Shown in pieces: positions 27,425 to 35,353 of a stretch of DNA of 64,000 nt (the stretch's first letter is position 1; each line of letters begins with the position of its first letter). The DNA lies in NCBI RefSeq assembly GCF_002914585.1, contig NZ_PDDM01000026.1, forward strand, positions 1 through 64,000. The letters are read 5' to 3'. This DNA is from Pseudanabaena sp. BC1403. Lineage in GTDB: Bacteria > Cyanobacteriota > Cyanobacteriia > Pseudanabaenales > Pseudanabaenaceae. The notes beneath the pieces were generated by a model. The model worked only from the letters and a program-made list of their open reading frames with translations, was not told the DNA's origin and did not search any database. The position numbers and the translations under genes are program-made.

Positions 27425-27703
27425 TTATTTTCTCTTGTAAATATCTCCTCTAAAGTCAATCTCATAAATTAATAACTCTTCAACGCTTGCACAAAAAATA
27501 ACTCTCAGCTTACCTATACGCATTCTTTGGTAGCCTTTCCATTCACCCTTGAGATTTTTAATGTCTAGTTCTTGAAAGGGAATTGAACCACTTTCTTCAA
27601 TGGAGAGTACAAGCGTTCTCAGCTTTTCCCGTATTCGCTCTTGGTCTATTGAGGACAGAGCATTTAAGAACTTTATTACATTTTTGCTGAATTTAACTTT
27701 CAT
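27425..27703 (-). CDS. RelE/ParE-type toxin
   Basis: 92-residue protein with the compact RelE fold: KFSKNVIKFL at the N-terminus, then ERIREKLRTL, LKGEWKGYQRMRIGKLRVIF and YEIDFRGDIYKRK, including the conserved Arg residues of ribosome-dependent mRNA interferases. Its start codon overlaps the stop of the gene upstream by 4 nt (ATGA), the usual antitoxin-first layout. It is intact. Confidence 0.85.
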   Translation of the reverse strand: MKVKFSKNVIKFLNALSSIDQERIREKLRTLVLSIEESGSIPFQELDIKNLKGEWKGYQRMRIGKLRVIFCASVEELLIYEIDFRGDIYKRK

Positions 27704-27897
27704 GATTTGATCCAGTCGGTCATGTCAATAAATTCTTCGGGAGCATATTGCGATGGGGTGGCAAATTTTGCTTCGATTTCGTGGATCTCTTTGTCGCTGA
27801 CAAGGGGGATTAGGGCAAGAAAAAGAGATAAGCGTTCTTCTCTCAAGACTTCGCGAACACTTTGCTTGATAATGTCTCTAAGCATTTGGGCTTCCAT
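27700..27897 (-). CDS. antitoxin partner of the RelE-type toxin
   Basis: 65-residue protein starting MEAQMLRDIIKQSVREVLREER. It has a helical N-terminus and an acidic C-terminal tail (PEEFIDMTDWIKS) typical of toxin-wrapping segments. The start at 27897 is supported by AGGAG 9 nt upstream; the frame is open to 27990 but lacks such support. I infer the antitoxin role from position, size and the 4-nt overlap with the toxin. Confidence 0.75.
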   Translation of the reverse strand: MEAQMLRDIIKQSVREVLREERLSLFLALIPLVSDKEIHEIEAKFATPSQYAPEEFIDMTDWIKS

Positions 27898-28017
27898 AGT
27901 TGTATCTCCTGTCATAAGTTTATGCCTAAATTTTTCAATTGTTGATTTATCCAAATTCTCCACGCCTTTTAAGCAAAGGTGTACACACAAGTTATTGGCT
28001 AGTGCTTATCTACTAAA

Positions 28018-28093
28018 GATCCCCCCTCAATCCCCCTTAAAAAAGGAGAAGAAGAAATTCTCCCCCCTTTTTAAGCGGGGCTGGGGGGAATCA
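28018..28093. repeat. GATCCCCC-type cyanobacterial repeat
   Basis: Palindromic repeat with GATCCCCCC ... CCCCCTTAAAAAAGG and its inverted partner CCTTTTTAAG(C/G)GGGG ... GGGGG. Related copies occur at 28486, 28641 and 47177. Repeats of this kind are common in cyanobacterial genomes. This copy abuts and extends into the DUF559 gene end. Confidence 0.75.
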
Positions 28094-28448
28094 TCCTCTC
28101 TATCTCCGCATAAACACTTTCAAATTCATTTAAAACCTGATGATTAGTAAATCGAATTACCTTGATCCCATAACCTTCTAATTGTTGAGTTCTCTCTTGA
28201 TCATAGTCTTTGCCTTCATCGCTATAATGCCTCTCGCCATCGACTTCAATAACTAGTTTGAGGCTAGGACAATAGAAATCAGCAATGAAGTAATCAATCG
28301 GTCTTTGGCGATAAACTTTGAACTTGAATGTTCTTAAATATTGATGCCAAAGTTTTCTTTCGGCGGGTGTCATGTTTTTCCGCAGTTCTTTGGCTCTAGG
28401 AATTAGAGCAGGATTATAGGGAAGATGAAAATCAGTTTCATATAGCAT
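28071..28448 (-). CDS. DUF559 (Vsr-like) endonuclease-domain protein
   Basis: 125-residue protein with the DUF559 signatures: RKNMTPAERKLWHQYLR, KVYRQRPIDYFIADFYCPSLKLVIEVDGERHY and KVIRFTNHQVL. The fold is that of the very-short-patch-repair endonuclease (PD-(D/E)XK), with IADFYCP and VIEVDG holding catalytic acidic residues. Free-standing DUF559 genes are widespread and of unknown role. The last residues (RMIPPSPA) are supplied by the adjacent GATCCCCC repeat, so the native C-terminus has been modified by repeat insertion. Confidence 0.82.
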   Translation of the reverse strand: MLYETDFHLPYNPALIPRAKELRKNMTPAERKLWHQYLRTFKFKVYRQRPIDYFIADFYCPSLKLVIEVDGERHYSDEGKDYDQERTQQLEGYGIKVIRFTNHQVLNEFESVYAEIERMIPPSPA

Positions 28449-31020: not shown

Positions 31021-31180
31021 CTATCTCAAATAAATTGTGGGTTCTTCCCAAAGATAGTTTTCTAGCGATACAGAGGATGTTGGGTTTTCTAAAGATGCGC
31101 CTGATTCGTCAACGATCGAAATATTCTCAGCCTCTAACTTCTCCCTCTGAGACTCAACATGAGCCGTCAAACAACCCTGA
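31021..31180 (-). pseudogene. frameshifted C-terminal end of the MOSC/alkyltransferase-like gene
   Basis: In the frame next to that of 31154-31807 the minus strand reads IQGCLTAHVESQREKLEAEN, then a Ser/Glu-rich stretch ending in WEEPTIYLR and a stop at 31021. In alkyltransferase-like proteins the HRV(V/I)-x-S motif is followed by just such a segment (QG..., then a Gln/Arg/Leu-rich helix). A one-base insertion or two-base deletion near 31170-31185 would join the two frames and explain the otherwise empty gap up to the thrS terminator. Confidence 0.6.
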
Positions 31181-31807
31181 ATCCAAAATTCTATGAACGG
31201 GATAACCTGCGATCGCCGCTTTTTTTAAATAATTGGGAATTGCCCGAAAATGCCCATCCAGAACGCCAATACCTGAAACGATCTGCCTGTAAGTTACTAC
31301 TTTACCCGCAGGAATCTTAGCCACAAAATCTAGAAATCGCTCGTAGGGAATTTCTGACAGCGGCGGAAAAACATTGGGTTCGATATAAAGGCGATCGCCT
31401 ACTTTTAACACCCCATTTGCGATCGCCACAGCCAACATTCCGCGCTTGCCTTCAATGCACTTGAGCGAATCTACCAAATGCGCGATTCGCTTACATGGTT
31501 CGCAATGGAAAGTAAGCCGCATCGCCGCTCCATCCATAGTTTTTAAAACTGTACCCGAAGTAAGTAGTTGGCGATCAATCCCTCTAACGACAATATTCTC
31601 CCTTAATTCCGATGGCTGAATCGAGAATGACTGCAAATCCTCATATTTAGCTACTAAAATTTGTCTGGGACTGATGGGATTGGTATTAATATCGCCATCG
31701 ATCCCAGAGCCAGATGCGATCGCGATCGCATCACGTTCCATCATCGCCAAGCCATGTTTAGGCTTAACAAACAGATTCGTTATCTCTCCATATATCGCTG
31801 GCATCAT
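31154..31807 (-). CDS. MOSC domain fused to an alkyltransferase-like (MGMT/ATL) domain
   Basis: Residues about 1-140 form a MOSC domain: GDINTNPISPRQILVAKYED, LRENIVVRGID and the conserved Cys in FHCEPCKRI, which in MOSC proteins receives or transfers sulfur for molybdenum-cofactor enzymes. Residues about 155-215 match the DNA-binding winged helix of O6-methylguanine methyltransferases (FVAKIPAGKVVTYRQIV, RAIPNYLKKA, GYPVHRILDSG). The catalytic PCHR is PVHR, so the domain is of the non-catalytic ATL type. The reading frame stops early (GLFDGSC); the true end is probably in another frame down to 31021. Start uncertain: ATG at 31807 or 31804, or 31837. Confidence 0.75.
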   Translation of the reverse strand: MMPAIYGEITNLFVKPKHGLAMMERDAIAIASGSGIDGDINTNPISPRQILVAKYEDLQSFSIQPSELRENIVVRGIDRQLLTSGTVLKTMDGAAMRLTFHCEPCKRIAHLVDSLKCIEGKRGMLAVAIANGVLKVGDRLYIEPNVFPPLSEIPYERFLDFVAKIPAGKVVTYRQIVSGIGVLDGHFRAIPNYLKKAAIAGYPVHRILDSGLFDGSC

Positions 31808-31812
31808 GGAAG

Positions 31813-32358
31813 TTAATCTGTGCCTCCCCATGTCCAAACGGGCTTACCATCTTTAACATCTTTTTTCAAAATCACAGGCGTTAGTCTATTGGCATCATTC
31901 ATGCCCGTCATATCCAAAATTAGATAGGCGCTGTCATTGATAAACTGCATTCGCAAATAGGAATGACCTTCAAAGGGTTCGCCATTAATCTTCGTGATTC
32001 TGGCAGTTGCTTGGCAGTTGTGATACTTAATCTGGAGTTTTGCAACCCAAGTCACACTAAATTTATCGCTTTTCTCAATCTTAAACGGTCTAGCAAACCA
32101 ACCAAGGGAAGTTGCCGTGCCATCAATTGTATAGCCTCCTTCATAATAGGGACGAGGTGTTTCGGTCAAGGTGATCTCCGTAGGGCATATCGGGAAAGTT
32201 GCACCTGAGTCCGCAGGATAAACACTAAGCGTGAGATTGTTTGGCGCTGCAAAACTGGGATTTGCAAATAAAGATAATTGTGCGATCGCCAAAGTACCGA
32301 CACTTAAAGATAGTCGCTTTAGAAAGAGCTTGAAAGTTTGCATTTTTAAAATTTTCAT
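31813..32358 (-). CDS. secreted hypothetical protein
   Basis: Starting at the ATG at 32358 the protein opens with a signal peptide (MKILKMQTFKLFLKRLSLSV ... LFANPSFAA), with likely cleavage after SFA. The mature part, about 140 residues, is beta-rich with two Cys residues (FPICPTE and YHNCQAT) that could pair. No family recognised. The frame is open to 32439, but the signal peptide fits best at 32358. It lies immediately upstream of the MOSC gene, whose start follows its stop by 5 nt, so they are probably co-transcribed. Confidence 0.7.
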   Translation of the reverse strand: MKILKMQTFKLFLKRLSLSVGTLAIAQLSLFANPSFAAPNNLTLSVYPADSGATFPICPTEITLTETPRPYYEGGYTIDGTATSLGWFARPFKIEKSDKFSVTWVAKLQIKYHNCQATARITKINGEPFEGHSYLRMQFINDSAYLILDMTGMNDANRLTPVILKKDVKDGKPVWTWGGTD

Positions 32359-34760: not shown

Positions 34761-34871
34761 CTACCATCTTGCATGGGTGTAGTTTTCAAGGATTTTGTGG
34801 TCTTTGCTTAGTAGGATATTTTCGTTATCTCCATAAAGCCAAATTACAACATGGGTGTCAAGGTAAATCAA
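34761..34871 (-). pseudogene. PIN-domain (VapC-type) toxin with internal deletion
   Basis: From a TTG at 34871 the minus strand reads LIYLDTHVVIWLYGDNEN, then ILLSKDHKILENYTHARW and a stop, 36 codons in all. The first half is the N-terminus of a PIN toxin (first catalytic Asp in YLDTHVV). The second half is the C-terminus of the same family (ILLTKD..I..NY..A.W). The roughly 80-90 residues between them, with the other catalytic acids, are missing, and the frame was kept. It overlaps the 3' end of the antitoxin gene by 14 nt, as in the intact modules. Confidence 0.75.
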
Positions 34872-35094
34872 GGTTTATTTCATGCTCCCAAGAGATATTT
34901 ACAAGATCGTCAGGATCGCCAATATATACTTCTGGGTGAGGTACAAGATTGTCAAGTTTGCTTTTTTTCTGTATTGGTAGTATTTGGAAGCGTTTGCCTT
35001 GCCAATCAAGTTCGATGGGGTCGCCTGTGGTGGCGATTTCTTCTAGTAGGTTAATAAAGTTGGTGGTGAGTCTATCTACAGGTATGGTTTTCAT
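34858..35094 (-). CDS. antitoxin of the decayed PIN toxin locus (Phd/YefM-like)
   Basis: 78-residue protein: MKTIPVDRLTTNFINLLEEI, then DPIELDWQGKRFQILPI and an acidic C-terminal segment with PHPEVYIGDPDDL. The N-terminal half has the Phd/YefM-type DNA-binding layout and the acidic tail would wrap the toxin. The gene is intact although its PIN toxin partner has lost its core, so it is now an orphan antitoxin. Confidence 0.65.
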   Translation of the reverse strand: MKTIPVDRLTTNFINLLEEIATTGDPIELDWQGKRFQILPIQKKSKLDNLVPHPEVYIGDPDDLVNISWEHEINLDLP

Positions 35095-35116
35095 ATATTC
35101 AATTATGAATTATCAA

Positions 35117-35353
35117 TTACGAATATTCCTCAAACTCTGGTAAGGATGCCTCAAAGTCATCTGACATAAATATTTTACCTTTGTCATTGCCAAATAACGA
35201 TCGCTTGGGGGTAATGGATACTAGTCGAGCTACGGGCTGATCGCCTTGAGTAATAACAATTTCCTGTCCAGCGATCGCTAAGTCGAGTAAGTGAAGTAGT
35301 TGAATTTGGGCTTCGGAAATGTCGATTTTTAAGGAGGGTTCGGAGGCTAACAT
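35117..35353 (-). CDS. Phd/YefM-family antitoxin
   Basis: 78-residue protein with the clear Phd pattern: KIDISEAQIQLLHLLDLAIAG, then EIVITQGDQPVARLVSI, and a C-terminal tail (FMSDDFEASLPEFEEY) that in this family binds a PIN (VapC) toxin. It lies 22 nt upstream of the other antitoxin on the same strand. A toxin gene of its own is not present in the expected place; a PIN C-terminal fragment lies on the opposite strand at 35399. Confidence 0.8.
   Translation of the reverse strand: MLASEPSLKIDISEAQIQLLHLLDLAIAGQEIVITQGDQPVARLVSITPKRSLFGNDKGKIFMSDDFEASLPEFEEYS

Follow-up and report, generated by a model that had tools for sequence, protein, structure and literature searches.

The window analysed here, a 64,000-nucleotide stretch of Pseudanabaena sp. 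BC1403 DNA (contig NZ_PDDM01000026.1, positions 1 to 64,000), contains an open reading frame in which a MOSC domain runs into an alkyltransferase-like (ATL) domain of the MGMT type and then breaks off. This raises the question of whether such a fusion exists as an intact protein in other genomes, and of what a MOSC domain could do when attached to a domain that reads damaged DNA. The order of the two domains, as read from the sequence in the original prediction, is supported by Pfam, where both exceed the curated cut-offs: MOSC (PF03473) reaches 31.8 bits for a cut-off of 22.7, and DNA_binding_1 (PF01035) 30.5 bits for a cut-off of 27. The translated frame reads MMPAIYGEI...PVHRILDSGLFDGSC before its stop, and an alternative, longer version could start at a TTG at 31837. 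According to the HMM alignment to Schizosaccharomyces pombe Atl1, the surviving ATL remnant includes R188, the equivalent of the arginine finger, as well as Y173. The segment that follows, QGCLTAHVESQREKL... up to 31021, lies in a different frame, and its 59% identity over 51 residues to the tail of an intact sister protein agrees with the displaced C-terminus initially proposed. The parts of the ATL domain removed by the frameshift are just the last helix and the C-terminal extension. The features of the locus are listed in Table 1.

Table 1. Features of the MOSC-ATL locus, in window positions.
Feature	Coordinates	Strand	Remarks
Truncated MOSC-ATL fusion ORF	31154..31807	(-)	217 aa + stop; start ATG at 31807
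MOSC domain, residues 2-146	31370..31804	(-)	Pfam PF03473; the intact sister matches YuaD 1oru and mARC1 7p41 in structure
CEPC motif with C102 and C105	31493..31504	(-)	C102 and C105 kept in 87/88 rows
ATL domain, surviving part, residues 151-211	31175..31357	(-)	Pfam PF01035; HMM alignment to Atl1
PVHR motif, replacing PCHR (MGMT) or PWHR (most ATLs)	31190..31201	(-)	
Out-of-frame ATL remainder: last helix and C-terminal extension	31021..31179	(-)	59% identity to the sister's in-frame tail; alignment gap

The intact counterpart is found in Pseudanabaena frigida ULC066bin1 (L002/L036), where an uninterrupted ORF encodes a 260-aa protein that is 94% identical to the window protein. When the DNA of both genes is aligned, a short gap, whose length is not a multiple of three, falls within 31170-31185, the interval in which an indel had been predicted. 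Upstream of the gap (5'), third codon positions take 28 of the 39 differences between window and sister, and downstream of it (3') they take 18 of 37. The upstream third-position bias indicates that the window gene was protein-coding and under selection until recently; either it broke recently or the indel is a sequencing or assembly error. Programmed frameshifting was also considered for the window copy and set aside, as no classical slippery heptamer was seen when the alignment was inspected by eye. Since the window copy is devoid of the end of the ATL domain, its MOSC half may still work, while lesion binding has probably been lost.

It is a fairly probable reading, compatible with any function of the family, that the window copy has become a decaying pseudogene and plays no part in this strain. 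The frameshift itself points in this direction, as do two further broken copies, one on a Calothrix plasmid and one in Nostoc FACHB-152, and the presence of the gene in only 2 of the 26 genomes of the genus. This reading has nevertheless to accommodate the intact MOSC half and the fact that the upstream changes are still biased towards third positions (28/39), and it bears on this copy, not on the family. The Calothrix plasmid copy (L061) is interrupted by an in-frame stop, and the reading of the second Nostoc FACHB-152 copy (L073) departs from the family past the MOSC domain.

The fusion is not a local accident: it occurs in several phyla, in a long form and in a short form. The window genome has a single copy. 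The profile is matched at 1e-10 in 35 of the 388 cyanobacterial genomes. Of these matches, 25 are fusions, as counted from the table and with the window's own truncated copy included, and the other 10 are partial; a scan of genome contigs gave 67 loci. The long form is held by Nostocaceae, Leptolyngbya-type cyanobacteria, Herpetosiphon, one Bacteroidota and one Latescibacteria MAG, and the short form by Bradyrhizobium, Gammaproteobacteria, Poribacteria, Terriglobia and Argonema. Nine plasmid records, all cyanobacterial and including Nostoc, cover at least 80% of the query, and are annotated as MGMT family protein (five) or hypothetical protein (four). No match to the long protein was obtained among 50,697 phage records, and one viral contig carries the short form. 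In the tree, long and short forms split at 100/100, and the window sequence groups with Nostoc, Herpetosiphon and the Bacteroidota sequence (97/87), apart from the Leptolyngbya-type clade. This grouping, together with the patchy presence of the gene, suggests that the fusion has spread by horizontal transfer.

An AlphaFold2 model, built on the sister protein with 47 alignment rows, has a pLDDT of 95.0 and a pTM of 0.90 for this long form. With VIA-align, which lists Foldseek candidates only, so that folds missing from its list carry no meaning, residues 2-146 match YuaD (1oru; Z 19.2, 144 residues aligned, rmsd 2.2), mARC1 (7p41; Z 15.1) and YiiM (5yhh; Z 14.5). Residues 151-254 match Atl1 with DNA (3gx4; Z 14.2, rmsd 2.0, 100 of the 108 Atl1 residues aligned), and the ATL domain also matches Vibrio parahaemolyticus ATL (2kif; Z 12.8) and, more weakly than Atl1, human AGT (1t38; Z 10.0, 81 residues aligned). 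The sequence-profile ranking against the PDB follows a similar order, with Atl1 at 8.9e-9, then the Vibrio ATL at 1.1e-6 and Ada at 0.0026, and the Atl1 match extends through the C-terminal extension, an ATL feature according to PMC10779285. The MGMT/ATL fold on which the original prediction depended is thus strongly matched, and homologues do not stop at GLFDGSC. Of the 47 alignment rows (33 long and 14 short), all have a MOSC domain by Pfam and 33 have PF01035.

The ATL part has the MGMT C-terminal DNA-binding fold and, as in ATLs, is without the MGMT N-terminal domain. With ATLs (S. pombe Atl1, V. parahaemolyticus 2KIF, Escherichia coli ATL) it also shares the missing acceptor cysteine, the arginine finger, the HR of the motif and the C-terminal extension. 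Neither C nor W was found at the MGMT cysteine position in any of the 56 distinct long rows, where V occurs in 33, I in 15, L in 6, and T and R in one each. The non-cysteine motif that had been noticed in the window, PVHR in place of PCHR, is confirmed, and the assignment to the ATL type stands in that respect; it has to be refined in that the residue is aliphatic (V/I/L in 54 of the 56 copies), unlike the tryptophan of most ATLs. This tryptophan is not a strict requirement, since the review ascribes it to most ATLs and not to all of them. The arginine finger is an R in all 56 distinct long rows. Y173 would occupy, on our reading of the HMM alignment, the position of the base-flipping tyrosine of Atl1; with duplicates included, Y is found there in 35 of 67 rows and T in 30, the tyrosine being absent from the Leptolyngbya-type clade. 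The fusion thus departs from known ATLs by its aliphatic residue, by the attached MOSC domain and, in one clade, by its lost tyrosine.

The MOSC part resembles the MOSC N-reductases (YiiM, YcbX, mARC and, by fold, YuaD) in its fold and in its conserved cysteine. Judged by the motif, C105 rather than C102 would be the conserved MOSC cysteine, a proposed Mo ligand and the predicted equivalent of YiiM C120. R97 is present in 88 of 88 rows, and C105, C102 and R122 in 87 of 88 each (duplicates included), the row without C105 being L020c, a script-read row that may come from the wrong ORF. The most conserved positions of the whole protein include the MOSC residues C105, R97, R122 and G123. For these counts, L095, L100, L101 and L102 were excluded, the broken copy L073 was dropped and L023 (one of the 25 class loci) was not included. 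The fusion differs from MOSC N-reductases by its ATL domain, which in the long form stands at the place of the YiiM 3-alpha domain; neither a 3-alpha nor a ferredoxin domain is among the 10 Pfam families listed for the 47 rows with E up to 1.

What could a protein of this composition do? In the review PMC10637980, all MOSC proteins studied in vitro are described as having N-reductive activity, and N-hydroxylated nucleobases are counted among the substrates of mARC; ATL domains, for their part, bind and flip altered purines in DNA (PMC10779285). Combining N-reduction by MOSC with base flipping by ATL, the simplest reading is that the fusion is a reductase directed to bases in DNA. A DNA-directed N-reductase is our best guess and the reading to test first. 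We propose tentatively that the intact protein could be a molybdoenzyme reducing N-oxygenated bases in DNA. The computed support consists of both domains, their folds and the conservation of key residues; that Moco is bound and that catalysis takes place on DNA is what we infer beyond it, along with the substrate and the electron donor.

The steps that we propose would make the protein a Moco-dependent direct-reversal repair enzyme, which is possible though less likely than not. The helix-turn-helix of the ATL domain would bind duplex DNA, and the arginine finger would flip out a purine altered at its 6-position, which would be held in the ATL pocket devoid of a methyl-accepting cysteine. The fused MOSC domain, binding Moco via its conserved cysteine, could then reduce the N-oxygenated base in place to the normal base, for example N6-hydroxyadenine, the base of 6-hydroxylaminopurine. 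To our knowledge, the reduction of a flipped base in place is a DNA-repair chemistry known from no described enzyme. Several points speak against a DNA-directed reductase: one clade has lost the tyrosine, the short form is missing half of the pocket, MoaA is not enriched among fusion genomes and the fusion loci have no constant redox partner gene, as described below.

The short form is homologous to the long one through the helix-turn-helix (hhalign 100%), but without the PxHR half of the ATL pocket. Its model (pLDDT 90.1, pTM 0.83) has MOSC structures as structural matches, and is aligned to YiiM up to residue 168-182. These observations bring in a rather unlikely alternative, in which MOSC would reduce free N-hydroxylated bases, nucleosides or small N-oxides, the ATL-derived domain serving as a substrate-binding lid with no part in DNA repair. 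Such a lid would replace the C-terminal helical bundle of YiiM, which walls the Moco cavity according to PMC5818509. The alignments of the YiiM chains 5yhh and 1o67, which start at residues 1-6 of the long-form model and run to residue 180, do reach into the ATL domain, and the short form has kept the helix-turn-helix and not PxHR. This overlay with the YiiM bundle is nevertheless weak evidence, as the alignment ranges give the first and last residue only. Moreover, a complete ATL fold with its C-terminal extension and an arginine finger in 56 of 56 long copies would be superfluous for a mere lid.

The original prediction had, by textbook analogy, the domain flag O6-alkylguanine for excision repair. 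Extended to the whole protein, this would give the ATL domain the role of Atl1, which is to bind O6-alkylguanine and bring in excision repair of the UvrA type, MOSC being accessory or regulatory. The ATL fold and the arginine finger would fit, and contacts of ATL with UvrA and UvrC as well as ATL-endonuclease V fusions are reported in PMC10779285. We nonetheless regard this as unlikely: residues of the MOSC domain rank with the best conserved of the protein, as expected for a working enzyme, the Trp of most ATLs is missing in 56 of 56 distinct copies, and the window genome already has a free ATL (118 aa, PWQR). It also has an Ada-type MGMT with PCHR, and these two separate proteins indicate that the fusion is not the sole reader of alkyl lesions. 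The fusion shares the domain family PF01035 with MGMT, Ada and Ogt, from which it differs by its missing cysteine and its weaker structural match (1t38). Near the gene for the free ATL (L104:179-1833, contig C9), a peroxiredoxin-like gene was noticed by eye.

The DNA-directed reductase was further considered in the light of the genome context. The window genome encodes MoaA and two more MOSC proteins, YcbX-like by eye. MoaA is found in 23 of the 25 fusion genomes and in 336 of the 388 genomes overall, so that there is no enrichment (23/25 versus 313/363 in the others; Fisher p 0.55); one fusion genome rated 99% complete (G242) gives no MoaA match, and 12 of the 13 genomes examined through fusion loci, mostly from other phyla, have MoaA. 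With no enrichment, MoaA co-occurrence is uninformative as a test of Moco dependence. In the neighbour analysis (61 fusion loci, long and short, leaving out L095, L073, L074, L100, L101 and L102), no partner gene common to the long form and no electron donor or redox partner conserved beside the gene were found. The ORFs on either side of the window copy look by eye like thrS and argS, and the gene on the downstream side of the sister is, unlike in the window, a type I restriction specificity subunit.

A small ORF without Pfam match closely precedes the window gene; it is unrelated, and other copies have other neighbours. This arrangement could suit a DNA- or RNA-binding regulator or a sulfur-carrier protein, in which MOSC would carry sulfur or Moco and the winged helix would bind a fixed operator or RNA; MOSC was indeed first proposed as a sulfur carrier in 2002, as recounted in PMC10637980. 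This is quite improbable in our opinion, since the long form has no constant neighbour, and since the half of the pocket formed by the ATL domain, with the HR of PxHR and the C-terminal extension, shows more conservation than a plain winged helix would call for.

The fusion is a new combination of two known families, which is real and found in several phyla. The passages of PMC10637980 on MOSC architectures name fusions to MoaB and XdhC and no ATL fusion. The archaeal fusions of AGT/ATL to endonuclease V, as described in PMC10779285, likewise join an alkyltransferase-family domain to a catalytic partner, but with a nuclease in the place of a molybdoenzyme. A full-text literature search, whose coverage mostly leaves out subscription papers, returned no paper that names a MOSC domain together with methylguanine or with alkyltransferase. 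No NCBIfam model reaches its cut-off with the sister protein, and some fusion copies are already labelled as MGMT family proteins in databases. MOSC enzymes detoxify N-hydroxylated bases and ATLs read DNA damage at the 6-position, and we found no described enzyme joining both. The occurrence of the fusion across several phyla hints that cells could reduce N-hydroxylated lesions inside DNA, by a repair enzyme not yet described. If true, this would provide a concrete substrate for MOSC N-reductases, whose physiological role is so far poorly explained.

Several further observations were made around the fusion loci. In several loci of the Leptolyngbya type and of Gammaproteobacteria, a BCP-type peroxiredoxin adjoins the MOSC gene (L071:1104-2143, L077, L081, L091:8604-9137); the two tested are both AhpC-TSA, and the Leptolyngbya-type loci also carry a NUDIX gene. 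This neighbour is not counted as evidence, because many families could be noticed after the fact. A caspase-like protein, recognised by eye, is encoded directly upstream on the same strand at L070, L072 and L079, the one at L070 having no Pfam match at 0.01, and an FMN reductase lies downstream at L079. In the window, small gene pairs at 27425-27990 and 34858-35353 resemble toxin-antitoxin remnants (a weak RelB-like match, and a Phd/YefM match slightly below cut-off), and a DUF559 gene (102 bits) is located at 28071-28448. No PADLOC match indicative of a defence role was obtained with the one long and one short protein tested.

Finally, an unnamed family (GC[VL]FA...W) is encoded next to the short MOSC form or close to it at L084:8719-9621, L085:1387-2070, L092:6442-7086 and L111:4411-4959, in Acidobacteriota, a cyanobacterium, Shewanella and a viral contig. 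The idea that it could be an N-oxygenase of the YqcI/YcgG type, suggested by eye, is not supported, as the family gave no Pfam match, no relevant NCBIfam match and an hhalign probability of 0.6% against one family member. The family is rare: it was found in 1 of 369 genomes of a gammaproteobacterial draw, which is the Shewanella genome itself, and in none of 388 cyanobacterial genomes, a draw without a known positive. It also occurs on another viral contig (L115:4968-5576), there with no adjoining MOSC gene. The GC[VL]FA...W protein and the short MOSC form likely constitute a two-gene module.
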